64,000 nt of DNA, taken from contig CM040101.1 in assembly GCA_022496805.1 (NCBI GenBank), positions 1,304,501-1,368,500 on the forward strand, in the 5' to 3' direction. The translations under genes and the position numbers were made by a program. The number at the start of each line of letters is the position of its first letter. The stretch's first letter is position 1. This document shows positions 10,213-55,683 of this stretch, in pieces. This DNA comes from Pohlia nutans (lineage: Eukaryota; Streptophyta; Bryopsida; Bryales; Mniaceae). The notes beneath the pieces were generated by a model. The model was not told the DNA's origin, searched no databases, and saw only the letters and a program-made list of their open reading frames with translations.

Positions 10213-10400
10213 TTAATCCCTAAAGGACTAAAAATTCATGGTTTCAAAACAACAAACTTAAGTCAATTGATCTTATCGTAAAGAATACAATCTACATGAG
10301 ACCAATTTTTATACCATCAAAATCAATGAAGAACAATGTGTGTTAGTAAAAACAAATATTTATTTAAAAAGAAGTCCACGTATGATCTAATCAAGTCCTA
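10213..10400 (+). mobile_element. MITE-1, right end lost
   Basis: It starts TTAATCCCTAAAGGACTA and continues with ATTCATGGTTTCAAAAC, TCAATTGATC and TCAATGAAGAACAATG, all diagnostic of MITE-1. It fades out near 10400. Confidence 0.7.
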
Positions 10401-29609: not shown

Positions 29610-30087
29610 TTAACCCTTAAACGTCCTTACCTTCTCCACATTTAGTAGTTTACCAAAGATGCATTATAAAATGCAACTAAGAGGGATATTTTGAACTTGA
29701 TGTATGAATAAAAGTTATACATTATGAATTTCTGATTTTATCTATATGGTTAGATCTGCGATTGCTGTCACCAATATTTTTCTATAAAATTTGTAATTCT
29801 TTTGTAATTTCATCGAGAAAGTTTTTTCATTTGAGTAATTTTGAAAACGAATTTCACTTTACATGTGTTGCTAGGAAAATTTCAGCATCCTTTTTTTACA
29901 CTAAAACACTATGATCTTGCAATCTATATGACCAAATGACTCCAAATTTGATCCACATGATCCACAACATGTATATAACAAGATTGTACAGTTGAGATTC
30001 CTATACCTCACCTACATTTAGATCTATAACACATAAAAAGCAATGATTATTTTAAGCCCAAAAAAGCTAGGGACGCTTAGGAGTTAA
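29610..30087 (+). mobile_element. MITE-2, complete
   Basis: TTAACCCTTAAACGTCC at the left mirrors GGGACGCTTAGGAGTTAA at the right. The body has AAAGATGCATTATAAAATGC and GATGTATGAATAAAAGTTAT as in the other copies. It lies only 170 bp from the left end of the large piggyBac element. Confidence 0.8.
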
Positions 30088-30257: not shown

Positions 30258-31857
30258 TTAACCCCTAAAGGACTGTAAGACCCCCAGGGGGCTTCTGTAA
30301 CTAGAAATCGACGATTTTCGACTTGTGGGGCTCTGAGAGGCGGCTTCAACGGCAAAGTGACCCTGGTTGATTTTTTGCACTAGTTCTGTCGGTCGTTTGC
30401 GATTTGAAATTGGTGGAGTGTGCAATTTTCTGTGAATTTTTGGAGCTGCCGAAGAGTTGTCGAGGGCGGAGACGGGCTGGCGGGGCAGCAGCGCTAGGAA
30501 GGCCAGGAGCAATCACGCAGTAACCAAGCGTGCGCAGGAGAAACCAAGCGAGTGAGAGCAGTGTCAGAGGCTCTGAATTCAGCCAAAATTCTGGCATTGC
30601 TCTGAGTCCGACGACCTGCAGGCAGCGATTTCGAGGTCGAGCGCTGCAGATTGGCAGGGCGACACAAAGTAACGGAAAAATTGGCATGTCGCATTCAGTC
30701 TGCAGGGCGACGTTAAATGTTGCTTGAATAACCCAAAATTTAGTGAACCCATAATCTACAAAAGAACCCACAAAATCGACAGAATCTACGAAACCCAAAA
30801 TCGCCGTTCCCTGTCAACGGCAGGAGCCTGCATGAGATTGACTACGGCCATATATTGGATTGCTAGGCGAATTTGTTGAAATTCGGAATTTGCAGTGAGA
30901 ACCGGTTGGACTTTCGGCCTGGAGCGTGCAGAAATTGGAATTGAAATTGATTTGCAACAGTAACGTTGGGAGTGAATTTGATTTGCGACAATACAAATTT
31001 GTTGAAATTTTGAGCTTTGTGACTTACAGAACGGTGACTTGCAGAACAATAACGTTGGGAATTGAAGAACGGTGAATTGGGAATTGCGGAACTGTGAAAT
31101 AGAATTGCAGAACGGCGACTTGCAGAACGGTGAACTGGGAATTGGACTGTTGAATGCCATTTCTGGCTGTTAGAATTCATGACCGTTGAGCGAGGGAGAA
31201 AATTCCGAGCATTCAAGGCGAACGTTGGTCTTGAGATTTCGACGCTGCAGAGTGGTGGGCTGGCCAACGACTGACAATCCAATTCTAATTGCAGAAGTAG
31301 GTGATCAAGAGAGTGGAAATCCTAGAACGCTGATAGGATTGCGACCCTCGATCATCTGCTTGGAGCGCTGAAAATTCTGAAGCAACAGAAATTTTTGCAG
31401 TCGGAGATGTTGGCTGTACACAGCGACCATAGTGCGACAGAGCGAGCCTTTGGGGGCAACGACAGGGTGAGCAAGCGAGAGAACCAATAGGCGCTGTTAG
31501 TGGCCACCAAGATTTTGTAGTTGAGCAACGTGAAGGCCATAAAAGATGGCCATTGTCCCTGGAGAAGCTCACACTGTGCTATCTGAAGCTAGAGTTGCAG
31601 TGGCTGTTTGGGTGAAAGAAGAGTTGCAGAAAACAGAGGATGTTGTAGCAGACCTTGTTTCCCTGTTGGATGAGGATGCTTTGCTCACAGCTCCGCGACC
31701 AACGGGTGTGAGATTGCCAAAAAAGCCGGTGGCACGGAACCTGCGATACTTGTGGAGACGTATGGTGGCGCATCGGTTGGGGTGGCGCCAACGACGGAGC
31801 GAGGGAGAAGTGGGATCCTTTCCAGCGAGTGTCAATTCTTCAGTGAGGCGCTTGTGG
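30258..31857 (+). repeat. Left inverted arm of the piggyBac element
   Basis: After the terminal CCCCTAAAGGAC come small palindromes (CCCCCAGGGGG, then AAATCGACGATTTTCGA). Further in, at 31020-31150, short direct repeats on the theme TTGCAGAACGGTGA appear about six times and could be transposase-binding sites (inference). A 96-residue frame starting at 31546 is open in this arm and in the right arm. Confidence 0.85.
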
Positions 31858-31882
31858 CCTGACCGAGCAAGCGAGGAGATGA

Positions 31883-34187
31883 ATGATGGGCCGAGCTCGC
31901 AAGCGGTGTAAGACCACCCCTCCTCCTGTTATTATTAACATTTCTGGCACCGGGAGCCCTACTGTGAATGTGGGTTGTGATCATGTTGGAGTTTGTAGCG
32001 AGGCTGGAACGTCCTCTAAAGCGGTAGAGCCGGGGTCCACGAGCCCAAAATCCTTATCCACTTCTGATAATGAAAGTGAGCCGTTGGGTTCTAATTCACG
32101 TTTGCATGGAGTAGATTCCTCTAATTTATCGCAAGAGTCTCCTCATTTGAAATCGGGTTTGAGATCCAATTCTAAGAGGCTGCTTATTCCATCGTTGTAT
32201 GCACTTGGGCATTGTGGTCAAGTTGTGAGGGTCCCGTGTATTGAACTCCCCGATGTCATGTGGTCGGATGCCAATTTTTCAAAGTCTGACTACCTCTGGA
32301 GAACTATCATGAACGAGTATTACGAACCGGCCCATGGCATGACATTTTTGAGCGTACAATTGTATGGTGTTTTTGGATTGTATGATGTTCATGATGTCGT
32401 GGTAGAATGGGTGGATGAAAATGATGATGTCCAGACAGTGCCCACGCAACAAATGTGGGCTCTTTCTGGGGAATACCGCAGTGACGATGATAGTGACTAC
32501 TACCCGAGTGACCAAAGAGAGGAGGACCCTTCGGAAACTATGAATAGATTGACTCCAAAAACTAGAACTTGGTTTATGGAGTCTTATAGGGCGGATCACG
32601 AACTTGGCATAGGGTATGGGGATTTTGACTATTTTGATGGGTTATCTGAAAAAGAAAGGTTTGCGGAGCACATGTGGAATTCGCCGGTATCGTTCATTCC
32701 ACATGTTGAGTGGCGAGGTGGGTCCAAAGGTTTCAAGGACGGATTGGGCGAGTTTGAGAGTTTAGAGGAGTATTTGATGTTGTTTTGGCCGCTAGCCATG
32801 ATGCGCAAAATTGTACGCATGACGAATTTGTATGCCGGTCGATCTAACGGGAAAAATGGCACATTAGGTGGGGCAAAGTGGGTGTATTTGACCGTGTCCG
32901 AATTGAAATCTTGGTTTGGAATTGTAATTTTGATGGGCCTAAAAAAAATTCCAAACCAAAGGTTGCATTGGTCCTCTATTGATATGTTTTATTTGCGAGA
33001 AATTAGCTCTATAATGTGTAGAAGATTTGAGGACATATTGAGATGTATACATCTTGTTGATAACGACCACATAACTACAAATAAAGATGAACCAAGTTAT
33101 AGCAAAATTGCAAAGTGTGAGTGGTTAGTGCGCAAGCATAATGCGTTGTATTCTCAATATTGGCAACCCGAGCAAAACCTTACCATTGATGAGATGATGG
33201 TAAAGTATTGCGGAAAATATTCACCATTAGACAATATATGAAGCAAAGCCCACACAATATGGCATAAAAATTTGGTGTTTAGCAAATAGTGTCTCAAAGT
33301 ATGTTCAAAAAATGGAAATTTATTGTGGTAAAAGTGAAGAATGTGAGGGTGAAGATCAAAATGCCGGTTACAAAGTGGTGACTAGTTTAGTGAGCGGGTT
33401 GGAGCACATGGGACATGTGATCACTTGCGATAATTGGTTTACAAGTCCAATTTTATTTTGGGATCTTTTGAAGCTCGGTTTCAGAGCTACTGGGACTTGT
33501 AGAACCAATAGGCGAGGTTGGCCAAGTGCATTGACGATTGACAAGGGTAAAGCCCTTAGAGCAGTTCCTTGTGGTACAATGTGGTGGCGAATGCACGCAT
33601 CACATCAATTGGCCGCTGTCACTTGGCTTGATAACAAGCCGGTGACAATTTTGACTACGGCCGTGTCCCCCATAGATGCAACAAATGAGTTGTTTGTGGG
33701 CAGATGGCATAAAAATGCCGTAAAAGACATCCCGTGCTCGTCCGCATTGGTACATTACCAATACCACATGCGGGGAGTAGATGTGCAAGATCAATTGCGA
33801 GGCAATTATTCTGTACAAACACGGGATCACAAATGGTGGCATAGGATTTTGTTACATTTACTAGATACATCTCTTGTCAATGCATATATTTTGTACCACG
33901 CTCGTATGCAAAGGATGGGTGAAAGTGTGATTAGCAGACTAAAATTCCACTATGAAGTGGCCACCAAGATGTGTACTTCCAGTGTGCAGCGCAAGCGTGT
34001 CATTCCTCTCCGAGCCGGCATTCCCAACCCAGATGCATTGCATTATACCTTGTTTTGGACGCGCATCAAGGGAAAAATAACGCGGAAAAAGTGTGTTATA
34101 TGCGAGAAGCGGCAACAGTTCTATTGCCCCACATGTGGAGACATTCCGGTTTGCATGGGCGATTGCTTTGTGGCACGCCATAGTTGA
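31883..34187 (+). pseudogene. PiggyBac transposase, frameshifted
   Basis: Two frames, 31883-33241 (452 aa) and 33312-34187 (291 aa), together cover a full-length piggyBac transposase. The first starts Arg/Lys-rich, is Ser/acidic through residue 200, then holds the DDE_Tnp_1_7 start (YWQPEQNLTIDEMMVKYCGK; catalytic Asp at 33188-33190). The second holds ITCDNWFTS (Asp at 33429) and MRGVDVQDQLRGNYS (Asp at 33780 and 33789). It ends in a Cys-rich finger CxxC-x7-CxxC-x5-CxxxC-x4-H, as in other piggyBac proteins. The join (33225-33311) still encodes conserved residues in shifted frames, so small indels rather than an intron explain the break. The product would be inactive unless the shift is a sequencing error. 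Confidence 0.9.
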
Positions 34188-34351
34188 TGACAATGTATGA
34201 TTTGAATGTAATAGCCATTTTTATGCATACTTGAATTATTATGTATTCACTTCCGGAGCTCAATTTTTGTGTTATGTCATTCTATGTTCTTTGATTTATG
34301 TGTCGTGGGTTATATGTTATAGCTATGTGATATAACTTTATCCTATATTTG

Positions 34352-34524
34352 GAAGGTTGGGACCGTTGTGAGAGCAGTAAAAGGTTGGGACCCTTGTGAG
34401 AGCAGTAAAAGGTTGGGACCCTTGTGAGAACAATGAGAATAGTGAGAGACTTGGGCTTGTGAGAACAATGAAAGGTCTGTGGCTTGTGAGAACAGTGAGA
34501 GGCTGGGGCTTGTGAAAATTGTGG
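34352..34524 (+). repeat. Minisatellite inside the piggyBac element, 28-bp unit
   Basis: AAGGTTGGGACCCTTGTGAG and its remainder AGCAGTAA repeat two to three times almost exactly, then decay into GGCTTGTGAGAACA-type units. A second duplication of about 110 bp (TGGGCCTTCAACCCCATGGCC) follows at 34625-34760. Confidence 0.75.
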
Positions 34525-35303
34525 GAAGTTTAATTTTTTTTGCAGCAAAGGACAATTTTTCCAATATACAGCAAGTGCCTGGTCCATGCAATTTTTTTGG
34601 GGGGAATGTAAAATTAGAAAGTGACCATGGGCCTTCAACCCCATGGCCCATGAAGGATTCAGTTTGGGCTCACCTGGCTCTCCATGCATTTTTTATTTAT
34701 TTGGGAATTGCAAATCAGAAAGTGACATGGGCCTTCAACCCCATGGCCTTCAACCCTATGGCATGAGTGATTCAGTTTGGGCCGACTGGCTCAATGCCTG
34801 GTGCCCTAGTCCATTGAATTTTTATTTTTTTGGAAAGGCTCTAGGCATTCAAGGCCCCTGACAAGCACATCCATTGACCTTGGTCATGTGGCCCCACTGC
34901 CATGTCTGGCCCTCTCCTCATAAATGAGCCCACTGCCATTTCATGACCGCACTGCCATTTCCTGCTTTTGGCCGGAATTCTTTTTTTTTGAAAAATACTT
35001 TGGCATTCATGAGATTGCTTGGGGGAAGGATTTGAGGGTAGAGCACAACTAAGGTATGGATCATGCAGGAGACCGAGCAGCACTAAGGGGCAGTACATTT
35101 TTTTTGGCAGCCCTTCGACCACTCTCATATGTTGCTCACTTCAAACCTCCATATTTTCTAATCTAAACCTCGGAATTACTTAAAAAAAATTCCACATGAG
35201 GGTCATGATGTTCTTTACATGTGGTAAAAATTTAAGATGTTTTGGAGCACTTCTAAGCAAGCCGATTTCAACATAAGTAAAAAGTACCCCCTGCCCAAAG
35301 TAC

Positions 35304-36903
35304 CCACAAGCGCCTCACTGAAGAATTGACACTCGCTGGAAAGGATCCCACTTCTCCCTCGCTCCGTCGTTGGCGCCACCCCAACCGATGCGCCACCATA
35401 CGTCTCCACAAGTATCGCAGGTTCCGTGCCACCGGCTTTTTTGGCAATCTCACACCCGTTGGTCGCGGAGCTGTGAGCAAAGCATCCTCATCCAACAGGG
35501 AAACAAGGTCTGCTACAACATCCTCTGTTTTCTGCAACTCTTCTTTCACCCAAACAGCCACTGCAACTCTAGCTTCAGATAGCACAGTGTGAGCTTCTCC
35601 AGGGACAATGGCCATCTTTTATGGCCTTCACGTTGCTCAACTACAAAATCTTGGTGGCCACTAACAGCGCCTATTGGTTCTCTCGCTTGTTCACCCTGTC
35701 GTTGCCCCCAAAGGCTCGCTCTGTCGCACTATGGTCGCTGTGTACAGCCAACATCTCCGACTGCAAAAATTTCTGTTGCTTCAGAATTTTCAGCGCTCCA
35801 AGCAGATGATCGAGGGTCGCAATCCTATCAGCGTTCTAGGATTTCCACTCTCTTGATCACCTACTTCTGCAATTAGAATTGGATTGTCAGTCGTTGGCCA
35901 GCCCACCACTCTGCAGCGTCGAAATCTCAAGACCAACGTTCGCCTTGAATGCTCGGAATTTTCTCCCTCGCTCAACGGTCATGAATTCTAACAGCCAGAA
36001 ATGGCATTCAACAGTCCAATTCCCAGTTCACCGTTCTGCAAGTCGCCGTTCTGCAATTCTATTTCACAGTTCCGCAATTCCCAATTCACCGTTCTTCAAT
36101 TCCCAACGTTATTGTTCTGCAAGTCACCGTTCTGTAAGTCACAAAGCTCAAAATTTCAACAAATTTGTATTGTCGCAAATCAAATTCACTCCCAACGTTA
36201 CTGTTGCAAATCAATTTCAATTCCAATTTCTGCACGCTCCAGGCCGAAAGTCCAACCGGTTCTCACTGCAAATTCCGAATTTCAACAAATTCGCCTAGCA
36301 ATCCAATATATGGCCGTAGTCAATCTCATGCAGGCTCTTGCCGTTGACAGGGAACGGCGATTTTGGGTTTCGTAGATTCTGTCGATTTTGTGGGTTCTTT
36401 TGTAGATTATGGGTTCACTAAATTTTGGGTTATTCAAGCAACATTTAACGTCGCCCTGCAAACTGAATGCGACATGCCAATTTTTCCGTTACTTTGTGTC
36501 GCCCTGCCAATCTGCAGCGCTCGACCTCGAAATCGCTGCCTGCAGGTCGTCGGACTCAGAGCAATGCCAGAATTTTGGCTGAATTCAGAGCCTCTGACAC
36601 TGCTCTCACTCGCTTGGTTTCTCCTGCGCACACTTGGTTACTGCGTGATTGCTCCTGGCCTTCCTAGCGCTGCTGCCCCGCCAGCCCGTCTCCGCCCTCG
36701 ACAACTCTTCGGCAGCTCCAAAAATTCACAGAAAATTGCACACTCCACCAATTTCAAATCGCAAACGACCGACAGAACTAGTGCAAAAAATCAACCAGGG
36801 TCACTTTGCCGTTGAAGCCGCCTCTCAGAGCCCCACAAGTCGAAAATCGTCGATTTCTAGTTACAGAAGCCCCCTGGGGGCCTTACAGTCCTTTAGGGGT
36901 TAA
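35304..36903 (-). repeat. Right inverted arm of the piggyBac element
   Basis: This is the reverse complement of 30258-31857 with the same length. Differences I could see are single substitutions that change one residue each in frames common to both arms. The mirrored TTGCAGAACGGTGA-type repeats lie at 36010-36140. Confidence 0.85.
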
Positions 36904-39833: not shown

Positions 39834-42711
39834 TCACCGTCTTGTCTTTTTCTTCTTGGAGTGCTTTTCAGAGTCCTTGGACTTTCGCTTCTCTTTCTTT
39901 CGTTTCCGTTCTTTCGACTCGTGCCGTCGTTTCCTCTCCTTCACCTCCCCAACGTTGTTGTCACTATCAGAGCCATCAACCTGAATGGATTTCTCCTTCT
40001 TGCGCTTCTTGCTCTCTCGTCCACCAAGCTCAGGGGGTAAAGAAGGACCTGCAACAGGACGTGCTGCTATTCGTGCTTCCCAATCCTCCTTCAGGCGAAC
40101 ATCGGTGTCAGGGCCTTCAAGACGAGCCCGGTACGGCCCCGACTCGTCCATCCGTGAGCCCACAGCTCCACGGCCCCTTTTCACTCTGTCAGCAACATTG
40201 CACCATCACACAGCTCAGCAAAATCCATCGCGGTTGTGTTTGGGGATCCCAGCCTCCTTGTAATGTTAGTACTTTCATTGAAACCCGATTCGTTGAGCTT
40301 TGGAGCTGAAGAATAGGATAAGTCACAGTTATGTGCTCCCTCCTCCTTTTCCCATTCCCAACCTCAATGAATGGAGGATGCGGCATCCTCTAGTTAGAAC
40401 TTAGCTGAAACTTAATTCGTCCAGCATTGGAGACAAAGAATGGGAGACAAAGATAGCGACAACTACACTAAAATTTTGATTTAGTGTCCAACGAGAATTG
40501 ATGTCTTTCACCACAGTTTGTTCAAAGATGAGGAGAAATAGTGTCCCTACAATACATAGGAGTTTGCCACTTGTCATTCCCACTTCCACTGAGAGTGCCA
40601 TGTTCCTTCCAGGACATGAGCTGACATGCCATAAAATTGCCATTTGTCATTGGAACACTACATCCAGAAGGTTTACTTCAAGTTTTTATCATTTTAAATT
40701 TCACAGTAAAAAGTGTTTTTTTTACAGAGGCACTATATCTCCAAAAAATCAAATAGTGTCCATGTTGAAAAAGTGTCCCAAACACTAAATCACAATTTTA
40801 GAGTATTGCTCAGGTGAAAACACCACTAAAATGTACACCTCCAGTACATTCTCTCCATAAAACATACACTAGGTGTCTCCTGAGCAACACTCCACCCCAC
40901 AGAAGTTGTATTGAGAGCTTGACACCTAACCCTCCGGTTTTTGTGCCAAGAGAATAGAGATGAATTTTAGAATTTCACAAGTTCCCCCTATTAAGAAGAA
41001 CTTTGCAGATTCGGTCCTGAGGTTCCATTCAAGAACACTCAATTTTAACTATCTCTGTGTTAAAAAAAGTCATACAGTGATCAAGGTGCAGAGTGTAAGC
41101 CAGCAAGGTATTTTTTGTCACTCAAAACCAAAATCCTCCCACGAGCGAGTAATTAATCACAAAAAAGAATCAAAATTTCTCAACTGACCTGAGGTATGAT
41201 CTAAAAGGAAAGGAAAGAAAGACGTACTTTGAATGCAAGAACTTCTCAATATCCTCATCCTTCAAGCCATCGTCGTCGTCGTCCTGATCTGAGGAAGAGC
41301 TGATCTGGGCTTCCCCGTTTGAATGTCTCCGTTCCGCGTACTCATCTCTCTCTGCTTTGGCAGCACTACTCTCCTCGTGATGATGCCGACTTCGCTTGTC
41401 TCTGGAGACCTTGTTCTCGAGCTCTCGCTGCCGCCACATCTCCTCCATGTCCACCACGCGATTGGCTGCAACCCCACAAATAGGTCAGAAATCACCACAG
41501 CCCACACTTAGGTTACCAAAAAAGACTCTGCAATTCACCATTCATGGTCATAAGATTACATTGATCATCAGAACATAGCACGTGTGGTCCAAAAACAAAG
41601 AAAAAAAAACGTCTCCATATGACCTACTCAAATGAGTGCTAGAAAAGACATAAGAGCCTCTCTTGGACTCTGCAATTAAACCCTAAAGGACCAAGGATTC
41701 ATGGTCATATTGTGAAGACAAACAGGGCCAACATTTCATCGATCGCCCGAATCAGTGAAGAGCATTGCATGTGTTGGTCCAAAAGCAAAGGAAAAAAATG
41801 AACAAAAGAACGTCTCCACATGACCTACTCAAATGAGTGCTAGAAAAAACACGAGAGCCTCTGTTGGACTCTGCAATTAAACCCTAAAGGACCAAGGATT
41901 CATGGTCTTATTGTAAAGACAAATGAGGGAAACATTTCACTGATCGCCAGAATCAGTGAAGAACATTGCACGTGTTGGTCCAAAAACAAAGAAAAAATTG
42001 CAAAAAACGAACGATTCCGCATGACCTACTCAAATGAGTGCTAGAGAAAACACGAGAGCCTCAGTTGGACTCTGCAATTAAACCCTAAAGGACCAAGGAT
42101 TCATATAATCATATAGTGAAGACAAATTTTCATTGATCGACAGAATCAGTGAAGACCATTGCACGTATTAATCCAAAAACAAAGAAAAAAATTTACCAAA
42201 AGAAAGTCTCCGTAAGAGCCTCTGTTAATTAAACCCCAGAGATCAAGGTTTGAAAATGACTGATCATAGAACAATAGAATTCAGACGGGCCAAATTTTAT
42301 TGATCACCAGAATCAGCGAAGACAACGTTCCATGTGCAGGTTCCCAAAAAACAAAAAACCAGGCCTACTCAAAAACATCCGGTAGACTCTGCAATCAAAC
42401 CCGAGGATTCAATGACTGATCATAAAACATTGCATGTAAAAAAAACCGAACAAAAGAAAGGCGACGTTAGATGAGCGCCAGAAAAAACAAGAGACCCGAT
42501 TCAATGCTTGAAACGGTGGTTGATTTCATTACAGAAACAGACCGTGCAAGACGCCGCGGACCATGCCCGTGAGGAACTGCCGGTTAGGGCGCGCCTTGAC
42601 GACAGGCTTGGCGAGGTACGCGCCCACACCGTCTCTCTCAGCTCGCTGCCGCATCATGTTGGCTTCCTCCATGATCATGGCCGCCAACCTCCGCTCCGTC
42701 TCCGGATTCAT
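39834..42711 (-). CDS. Nuclear Lys/Arg/Ser-rich protein, conserved plant family of unknown role
   Basis: Exons (minus strand) are 42711-42543, 41465-41228 and 40185-39834, phases 1 and 2, giving 252 residues. The N-terminus MNPETERRLAAMIMEEANMM, then FLTGMVRGVLHANRVVDMEE and MWRQRELE, looks like a conserved domain. An acidic/Ser stretch (DQDDDDDGLKDEDIEKFL) follows. The C-terminal third is Lys/Arg-rich with repeated KRKK/SKDSEK runs, typical of nuclear-speckle or splicing-associated proteins. A role in RNA processing is inferred only from composition. Intron 1 (41466-42542) is made largely of a tandem MITE-1 array. The gene is divergent from the MFP1-like gene, with 654 bp between the two ATGs. 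Confidence 0.8.
41515..42480 (+). mobile_element. Tandem array of about six MITE-1 units in an intron
   Basis: Units start at TTAAACCCTAAAGGACCAAG at 41676, 41877 and 42078, and at TTAAACCCCAGAGATCAAGG at 42229. A partial unit precedes them (from about 41515) and a decayed one follows (about 42395-42480). Full units are 205 bp, and each ends GACTCTGCAATTAA, sharing one TTAA with the next. All lie in the same orientation. They contain CAGAATCAGTGAAGA and CATTGCACGTGTTGGTCC as in other MITE-1 copies. Confidence 0.85.
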
Positions 42712-53654: not shown

Positions 53655-55683
53655 ATGAGTGAGAACGGGGTAGAGTTTGATCCGCTGGGGGCGCGGCTAT
53701 CGGAGTGCCGGCCGTTCTTACGGGAGGATTACCAAACGATCGACGCGCGGCTCCCCGAACTCCTGAAGATTCTCCACTCGCGAGGCGCAGGCGAGTGCTG
53801 GCACAAGCACGGGACGTTCTACGAGCACCTGCTGCACACGTACCGCATCCTCAAGCTCTGGGGCTGCAGCGACACCATCTCCCTCGTGGCGCTCTGCCAC
53901 TCCTCCTACTCCAACTCCTACGTCAACCTCGCCATCTTCGCCCCGGATGTCGACCGCAGCGTGCTGCGCGCCCTCATCGGGGAGGACGCCGAGGATCTCG
54001 TGCACCTCTTCTGCGTCGTGCCCCGTCAGGAGCTCGTCTTCGACCGCTTCTTGCATCGCCTCACGGATCCGGAGCTGCTCGAGCGCCTGCATGGGAACAA
54101 GGAGAAGAAGAAGCTGCCATTGCTTGTTCCTAATGAAGGTCTTGTGTTGAAGCACATTCGTACTGGTGAAGATGTCGTGCTCCCTCGCCGTATCGTTGCA
54201 CTCTTCGTGCTTCTCACCATGGCCGACTTCGCTGACCAATTCTACGGCTGGCAGGTATATTGAAGTCTGTTACAATTGCTTGTTTGTTTTTCTTTGTATC
54301 TTTGAGTACAAGTCTCTTTTGCTCGTTTTTCTTTACCTGCACATGCAACGTTCTTTGTTGATTCTAGTGATTAATCGAATTGGGAAATTTCAAACCCTGA
54401 AAACGACGAACTCATATTGCCAAATTCTATTGATCACCAGAACCAATGAAGAGCATTGCATGTGTTGACCAATTCTACGGCTGGCTGGTCTAATAAATTC
54501 TGTTGCGCCTCTTTCGCAATTGAATTTCATGTTTGTATTCTTTGCATCTTTGAGCACGTCATATGAGAACTCTCTTTTCTTCATTTCTCTTTACCTACAC
54601 ATGCAACGCTCTTTCTTGATTCTGGTGATCAATCGCCTTGGTCATTTTCAAATCCTGGAAACGACGAACTCATATTGATCACCAGAATCATTGCATGTGT
54701 TGGTTAAAAAAAAACACAAGGAACTCCTCATACGACGTACTCAAAAAAACAGGCGATGCAATTTAGGGCTCCAATGAATTGTTGAGTGCAGAAATCACTC
54801 ACTCACACATTGCTAGCATTAACCCCCTAAAGAATCAAGAAGCCCAAATTAGGCCTTATGTTTCTTTTCGCAATTTTGAGTAGGTTCTATGTGTACTTCC
54901 TTTTGTTCAAGTTCATTTGTTTTTTTATCAACACATGTAATGTTCTTCAACGATTCCGGTGATATAAAATATGGTCCCATCTGAATTATAATTTTCGATA
55001 TATGATCAATTGAATTTGTAATTTTAAAAACCGTGAATCATTGGTCCTCTCCGGGTTAACTGCAGGACTTGTTGTTTGGAAACGAGGATGGAGAGTTTCG
55101 GTACGCGGGCAATGGATGGCACGCGCTCTGGCCAGGGAGCTGCAAGCCAGGGCTATGGCTGTCCGTGGTGTCGCGGATGGGCATGCTACTCAACATCCTT
55201 CTCCACGAGGACGCGGCGGAACAAAAAATCCATGGGGACTTCAACCACGGCTCGGCATTGAACAAGTTTGCAGCTCTGGAGGTTCCAGTGCCACAGATCT
55301 TCAACAAGTGCACAGAGATTCTGTCGCCCGTGAACCAGAACCGGTCGCGTGATCAGTACTGGGAAGCCATACACATCGAGGAGCGAGACCGGCTGGTGAA
55401 CACCGCCATGCCGTTGCTGCAGAGCGCGTGCAAGCTGAACCCGTACGTCGCGGAGCCTCGTTTTCTGATGGCCCAGATCTACCTCCAGCAAGGCGAGTAC
55501 GAGCTCGCGGAGACGGAGGCCACGGAGGGGCTGCGTCTCTTGTTGAACTGGGTCACGCCGTGGGACAAGCGCATGACGTGGGAAGGCTGGCTGTCGTTCG
55601 GGCGCGTCATGCGCGACAACGCGCACCAGAAAACGTGGCCTCGCACCGCCTTCGGCATCATCAACCTTGGCCTCGTGAAATGA
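53655..55683 (+). CDS. DUF6817-like protein with C-terminal TPR-like region
   Basis: Two exons, 53655-54254 (200 codons) and 55066-55683 (205 codons plus stop), give 405 residues. The N-terminal half resembles DUF6817: CWHKHGTFYEHLLHTYRILK, WGCSDTISLVALCHSSYS, then a segment with HLFCVVPRQELVFDRFL and IVALFVLLTMADFADQFYGW. The spaced histidines (H52, H58, H61, H82) and helical pattern recall HD-type domains, but the HD doublet is HS here, so catalysis is uncertain. The C-terminal part (TAMPLLQSACKLNPYVAEPR, QIYLQQGEYELAETEATEGL) looks like TPR helices. Codons are strongly GC-ending, unlike the rest of the window. The single intron carries a duplication of the exon 1 border and a MITE-1 that ends 6 nt before the acceptor. 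Confidence 0.8.
54233..54710 (+). repeat. Tandem duplication across an exon-intron border
   Basis: The last 18 nt of exon 1 (ACCAATTCTACGGCTGGC) and about 210 nt of intron are repeated from about 54470. In the copy the donor GCAG|GTATAT has become GCTG|GTCTAA. Shared downstream blocks are ACATGCAACG(T/C)TCTTT, AACGACGAACTCATATTG and ATTGCATGTGTTG, the last also found in MITE-1. Confidence 0.75.
54819..55059 (-). mobile_element. MITE-1 abutting a splice acceptor
   Basis: TTAACCCCCTAAAGAATCAAG at the left, CATTGGTCCTCTCCGGGTTAA at the right. The body is complete (GCAATTTTGAGTAGGTTC, CGATTCCGGTGATATAAAAT, ATATGATCAATTGAATTTG). The right TTAA (55056-55059) is followed by only CTGCAG before exon 2 begins at 55066. 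Confidence 0.8.

Follow-up and report, generated by a model that had tools for sequence, protein, structure and literature searches.

The window, by which we mean the whole 64,000-nucleotide stretch of Pohlia nutans DNA analyzed here, carries an element in which a piggyBac transposase lies between two long inverted arms, with TTAA at both outer edges (Table 1). An earlier note on this stretch had described exact TTAA on both sides, identical termini, inverted arms of about 1600 bp that are equal in length, and a piggyBac transposase between them, and each of these features is borne out by the results below. The first 22 nucleotides (TTAA followed by CCCCTAAAGGACTGTAAG) are the same at both ends of the element. 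When aligned base by base, the two arms, each 1600 nt with TTAA and 1596 bp without it, match without gaps and differ at five positions, all of which are transitions, giving a pairwise identity of 99.69% and a divergence of 0.31%. The terminal 22-mer occurs twice in the 64-kb window when up to three mismatches are allowed, and in none of 100 shuffled controls. Beyond the TTAA the left and right flanks are unrelated to each other, and the G+C content of the element (0.42 to 0.50, depending on the part) is higher than that of the flanks (0.39).

Table 1. Positions of the features of the element within the window.
Feature	Position	Strand	Remarks
TTAA, left target-site copy	30258..30261	.	outer edge of the left arm
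Left arm, the original left end	30258..31857	+	TTAA, terminal repeat CCCCTAAAGGAC..., non-coding left region, ORF1 codons 1-104
ORF1, 121 aa, the family's conserved second ORF	31546..31911	+	29-nt overlap with the transposase start, in another frame
ORF2 transposase, N-terminal and first catalytic part	31883..33241	+	PF13843, E 6.8e-24; PDB piggyBac/piggyBat
ORF2 transposase, remaining catalytic part and cysteine-rich C-terminus	33231..34187	+	other frame; PF13843, E 9.5e-35; PDB
Internal 3′ non-coding stretch, common to siblings	34188..35299	+	92% with L016
4-nt filler GTAC at the rearrangement junction	35300..35303	.	makes the repeated 9-mer AAAGTACCC
Right arm, inverted duplicate of the left end, replacing the natural ~215-bp right end	35304..36903	-	ORF1 truncated after codon 104
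TTAA, right target-site copy	36900..36903	.	outer edge of the right arm

The transposase is encoded by two overlapping open frames, both of which match PF13843 well above the cut-off and both of which match solved piggyBac and piggyBat chains in the PDB. The aspartates of LTIDE, TCDN (TCDNWFTS here) and GVDxxDQ (GVDVQDQ here), which we take to be the catalytic residues, align with the 6x67 chain. The C-terminal part has a cysteine pattern that is partly conserved in relatives, with a PDB alignment below significance. In the window copy the reading frame is broken near 33225-33250, a position that the relatives P0002 and P0004 read through. Since ORF2 is split over two frames, the window copy encodes no unbroken transposase; relatives without stops within the transposase match exist in the Pohlia genome. 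No relatives of the protein or of the terminal 22-mer were found in the viral contigs or genome contigs searched. In a tree of 50 transposase rows, in which 16 of the 47 inner branches are open and the only named rows are two animal rows, the window copy sits among ordinary Pohlia copies. As judged from this position, the window copy is a member of the piggyBac superfamily, and a rearranged one by descent.

The C-terminal piece of the transposase has at least 126 matches in the P. nutans assembly (697,796,988 bp in 332 contigs), with identities from 96% down to ~37%; this count includes the window's own copy, takes a few copies as two pieces, and comes from 125 scored candidates out of 1240. 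By sequence, piggyBac is both abundant and diverse in P. nutans. Among the matches listed, identities to the window fall into bands of ~82-96%, ~48-61% and ~37-43%, with some copies in between. Some of these matches lie in long open frames, and the longest without a stop in the match has 1139 codons among those listed.

Long copies of the family are ~5 kb in length and consist of a 13-14 bp terminal repeat, TTAA, the small ORF1, and the transposase ORF2. We fetched 20 sibling loci, picked from the 49 arm matches listed (40 of 653 candidates scored). Both ends were recognized in 13 of these, and all 13 have TTAA plus an inverted repeat of 13-14 bp, CCCCTAAAGGACC[G], with one mismatch inside the repeat of L022. 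Six of the two-ended siblings measure 4.9-5.3 kb and seven 0.8-1.7 kb; in the other seven loci (L011-L014, L016, L021 and L025) one or both ends went unrecognized. The left-type end of the family is TTAACCCCTAAAGGACYGTAAG. A short terminal repeat (~13-19 bp, starting with CCC, at unequal ends), as is typical of the piggyBac superfamily, is absent in the window copy and present, at 13-14 bp, in the siblings.

Where they match, the best siblings are 92-95% identical to the window over parts of the arm, ORF2 and the 3′ stretch, falling to 76% over part of the left arm. Parts of the left arm are common to siblings in one orientation. In L018, L019, L020, L023 and L024, the non-coding left region has no match to window positions 30308-31510 beyond its first 46-50 bp, and the ORF1 stretch and ORF2 of these loci are still 83-95% like the window; the left ends of the family look modular. 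At about position 471 of L011, on the reverse strand, the left end of the C13 relative abuts the right end of another piggyBac copy in tandem, with a shared TTAA. Two left-type ends in L013 were considered as a facing pair, a reading that we rejected, as they face outward and belong to two elements.

The right side of the element is where the window parts from its family. The last part of the internal 3′ stretch matches 16 loci at 83-94%, and an extra 70% match in L011 is part of a neighboring copy. All 15 siblings with a recognized right end of their own continue past the equivalent of 35299 into the same ~215-bp end, a count that excludes the right-type ends in L011 and L013, which are those of neighboring copies. 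The window does not, and after 35299 it has the 4-nt filler, followed by its own left 1600 bp in inverted orientation. We also compared 29 loci centered on the transposase, several of which are the same elements as among the 20 fetched. The natural right end is kept in 24 of them and an inverted left arm was found in none (0/29); the same test detects the arm in L031, which is the window's own locus. The full natural right end is absent from L038, L055, L056, L060 and L059, the last of which has a 52-bp piece. L038, one of the closest to the window by transposase, has no recognizable 3′ part, while L059 and L060 are more distant, such that an inverted arm there might be too diverged to see. 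The C13 element, among the nearest in the left arm (93-94% over roughly the first 425 bp, 76% over 504-1221), has a natural right end (L058).

These comparisons bear directly on the proposal of the earlier note that the element stands for a distinct long-arm subgroup of piggyBac in land plants, with the 1.6-kb inverted repeats as its working ends. The arms are almost identical and are bounded exactly by TTAA, as such a subgroup would have them, and long repeats have a parallel in some bees, for which the available part of PMC10140906 gives piggyBac repeat lengths of 200, 201 and 489-493 bp. Against the proposal, the ends are short in 13/13 two-ended siblings, inverted arms are absent from all 29 transposase loci, the inner boundary of the arm falls within ORF1, after codon 104, and the tree places the window transposase inside the ordinary family. 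We consider a subgroup of this kind highly improbable. What stands of the earlier interpretation is a piggyBac element inserted at TTAA in a land plant, a moss; the long-arm lineage and the distinct subgroup do not. Arms common to several copies were not found among the matches listed, the 20 fetched loci or the 29 transposase loci, and the long arms look like a one-off accident as opposed to a family trait.

We are instead highly confident that the window element is a left-end/left-end (foldback-like) derivative of an ordinary multi-copy piggyBac family, in which the natural right end has been replaced by the element's own inverted left 1600 bp. The direction of the change can be read from ORF1. 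Seven metagenome proteins are related to it (68-79% identity), six of which end like the left copy and none like the right-arm copy, with the seventh stopping earlier. The left end is thus the ancestral one, from which the right arm was derived. At the junction, the filler and its neighbors form the 9-mer AAAGTACCC at 35281-35289 and again at 35297-35305, 16 nt apart, and of the 256 possible 4-nt sequences at this place only 2 would create a 9-nt repeat with the preceding 30 nt. We infer that the filler is the type of scar left by template-switching repair.

The most likely cause of the arm would be break repair with microhomology template switching. We hypothesize that a break occurred inside or at the element's right end, that the left end of this element, on the sister chromatid, served as the repair template through microhomology-mediated template switching, and that the product was then rejoined at TTAA. 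With the arms 0.31% apart and the nearest siblings 92-95% identical over matching parts, the right arm was evidently copied from the same element, in a recent event. The rearrangement is therefore probably recent, with the qualification that any gene conversion between the arms could have lowered their apparent age. Some results sit less easily with this explanation. A mobile long-arm element would likewise be flanked by TTAA and symmetric within, and 5 of the 29 transposase loci are without the full natural right end.

Near-perfect inverted duplications are also a known type of assembly or library artefact. The duplication could be a palindromic read, or a collapsed or duplicated contig end, the latter named in the earlier note as one finding that would undo its own reading. 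The five transitions argue against this, as derived states occur in both arms when the siblings are used for comparison. At arm position 22 the left arm carries the derived base, since 19 of 21 sibling entries have that of the right arm; at position 271 the right arm carries it, since 9/9 sibling entries have that of the left; and at position 565 it is again in the right arm, as judged by one sibling only; at positions 442 and 1213 the siblings are few or split on the older base. In addition, the arm ends at TTAA and not in the flank, the two flanks differ, and the published assembly was made from PacBio HiFi reads of this Antarctic moss with hifiasm, according to the available part of PMC9247546. 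We regard an artefact as the least credible of the explanations weighed here.

A different history is that the rearrangement took place at another locus and the left-end/left-end element then jumped here whole, with paired left ends being mobile in this family. The intact TTAA on each side and the unrelated flanks are what such a jump would leave, and paired 35-bp left ends can still be mobilized, though less efficiently, by a hyperactive form of the insect piggyBac transposase (PMC7351741, available part). However, the same part of that source reports that insect piggyBac with shortened ends requires an end of each type, left and right, for its activity in cells, and that with the native transposase paired 35-bp left ends are inactive. 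Among the 49 arm matches listed, the window is the sole place where two oppositely oriented matches lie within 10 kb of each other, and no second copy with facing arms was seen there. Furthermore, TTAA on both sides is no proof that the element moved once rearranged, since the copying that duplicated the left end may have included its TTAA. We think a jump as a unit unlikely. An empty site was sought through the repeat family at 29610-29799 in the window, the copies of which end ~460 bp before the insertion.

If the moss enzyme resembles the insect one, the end-replaced window copy has probably lost its mobility, as its paired left ends should hinder movement and so should its broken transposase frame. 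Such immobility agrees with the broken frame and with its being the sole copy with facing arms among the matches listed.

ORF1 is full-length in 11 sibling loci, of which two have internal stops and one lacks an ATG, and it is partial in 21 further transposase loci, where the limits of the fetched sequence truncate it; some of these loci represent the same elements as the sibling loci. Across 12 copies ORF1 has no indel and a mean identity of 87%, whereas the 363 nt upstream are 51% identical with gaps in all 12, a low value that arises partly because the left regions come in unrelated versions. For codons 1-112 in these 12 copies, pN/pS is 0.346 in the frame of ORF1 and 0.59-1.29 in the five other frames. 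In pairwise comparison with the window, the three pairs of highest pS give a pN/pS of 0.24-0.27, and the remaining eight give 0.41-0.86. ORF1 thus shows signs of purifying selection across the 12 genomic copies. A Pfam search gave only a chance-level match, in one of eight members, and a PDB search gave nothing credible, with matches at E 0.41-0.99 only. The AlphaFold model is unreliable (mean pLDDT 49.8). The protein has a basic, arginine-rich stretch, and ORF1 may either encode a protein of its own or be one exon of the transposase.

We tentatively speculate that this moss piggyBac lineage is a two-protein transposon, with ORF1 as a dedicated partner in DNA binding or regulation, and that copies with a rebuilt right end, in which the left-end region has become an inverted repeat, could be a source of small RNAs that silence the family. 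On this point the long inverted repeat of the window, if transcribed, might silence the family through small RNA. We see the conserved ORF1, with no recognized family in Pfam or the PDB, as the part of most open interest.

Other features were seen in the window outside the element. Twenty-one sites, including both arm ends, lie within two mismatches of TTAACCCCTAAAGGAC (examples are at 10213, 25937, 29382, 38784, 41676, 41877, 42078, 49058 and 61285), and none were found in each of 20 first-order Markov controls; these sites are probably ends of other TTAA elements or of their short derivatives. At 41591-42193 there are three tandem 201-nt units, the second and third 88% and 60% identical to the first, each with a TTAAACCCTAAAGGACC terminus, an arrangement that resembles the tandem amplification of a short TTAA element. 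A neighboring DUF6817 gene occupies 53655-55683 in two exons, and among named sequences it is nearest to the moss Ceratodon purpureus (69%), followed by Sphagnum (53%), Riccia (52%) and Marchantia (51%). A sigma-70 promoter scan was set aside as irrelevant to a plant.

Within the literature, plants are occasional hosts of piggyBac, with red algae as the example, in the part of PMC12732532 available to us, where the longest repeat of beetle piggyBac is 46 bp among the table rows seen. A fern genome table lists 1230 piggyBac pieces (PMC6890710, available part), and a piggyBac-like element from Tuber is described, in the accessible portion of its report, with 52-bp repeats and TA instead of TTAA. 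The main text of the Pohlia nutans genome paper (PMC9247546) has no mention of piggyBac, and no description of native moss piggyBac elements was found among the open-licence papers listed, as judged by titles and the starts of abstracts. A Niphotrichum report was considered as a moss record and rejected, since both of its "piggybac" matches are the word piggybacking. The present work documents a diverse piggyBac population in a moss.

The closest comparison is with the Trichoplusia ni piggyBac (PDB 6x67) and piggyBat (PDB 9c0f), which share the transposase family, the aligned aspartates (6x67) and the TTAA target with the moss element, and which the ordinary moss siblings also resemble in short terminal repeats that begin CCC. 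Unlike either, the window copy has left-type sequence at both ends and an interrupted reading frame, and the moss family has a conserved ORF1 ahead of the transposase. Long copies of the moss family are also larger, at ~5 kb, than T. ni piggyBac, for which 2472 bp is given in the accessible text. The bee piggyBac repeats resemble the window arms in being far longer than 14 bp, but they span 200-493 bp (PMC10140906, available part), whereas the window arms measure 1596 bp, have been seen in a single copy and arose by replacement of a right end.

In P. nutans, parent and derivative in one genome show how a transposon whose short ends differ can acquire very long arms that match, apparently through one repair event. 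As such end conversion is possible, long inverted arms alone should not define a subgroup. MuDR and Harbinger are two-gene transposons with a second conserved ORF beside the transposase, and the moss family is like them in this respect, its own ORF1 being without a credible Pfam or PDB match. In foldback-type derivatives of cut-and-paste transposons, one end is replaced by an inverted copy of the other, which results in long inverted arms. The window element has undergone the same end replacement, and in Pohlia both the parent form and the exact junction are readable in the same genome.
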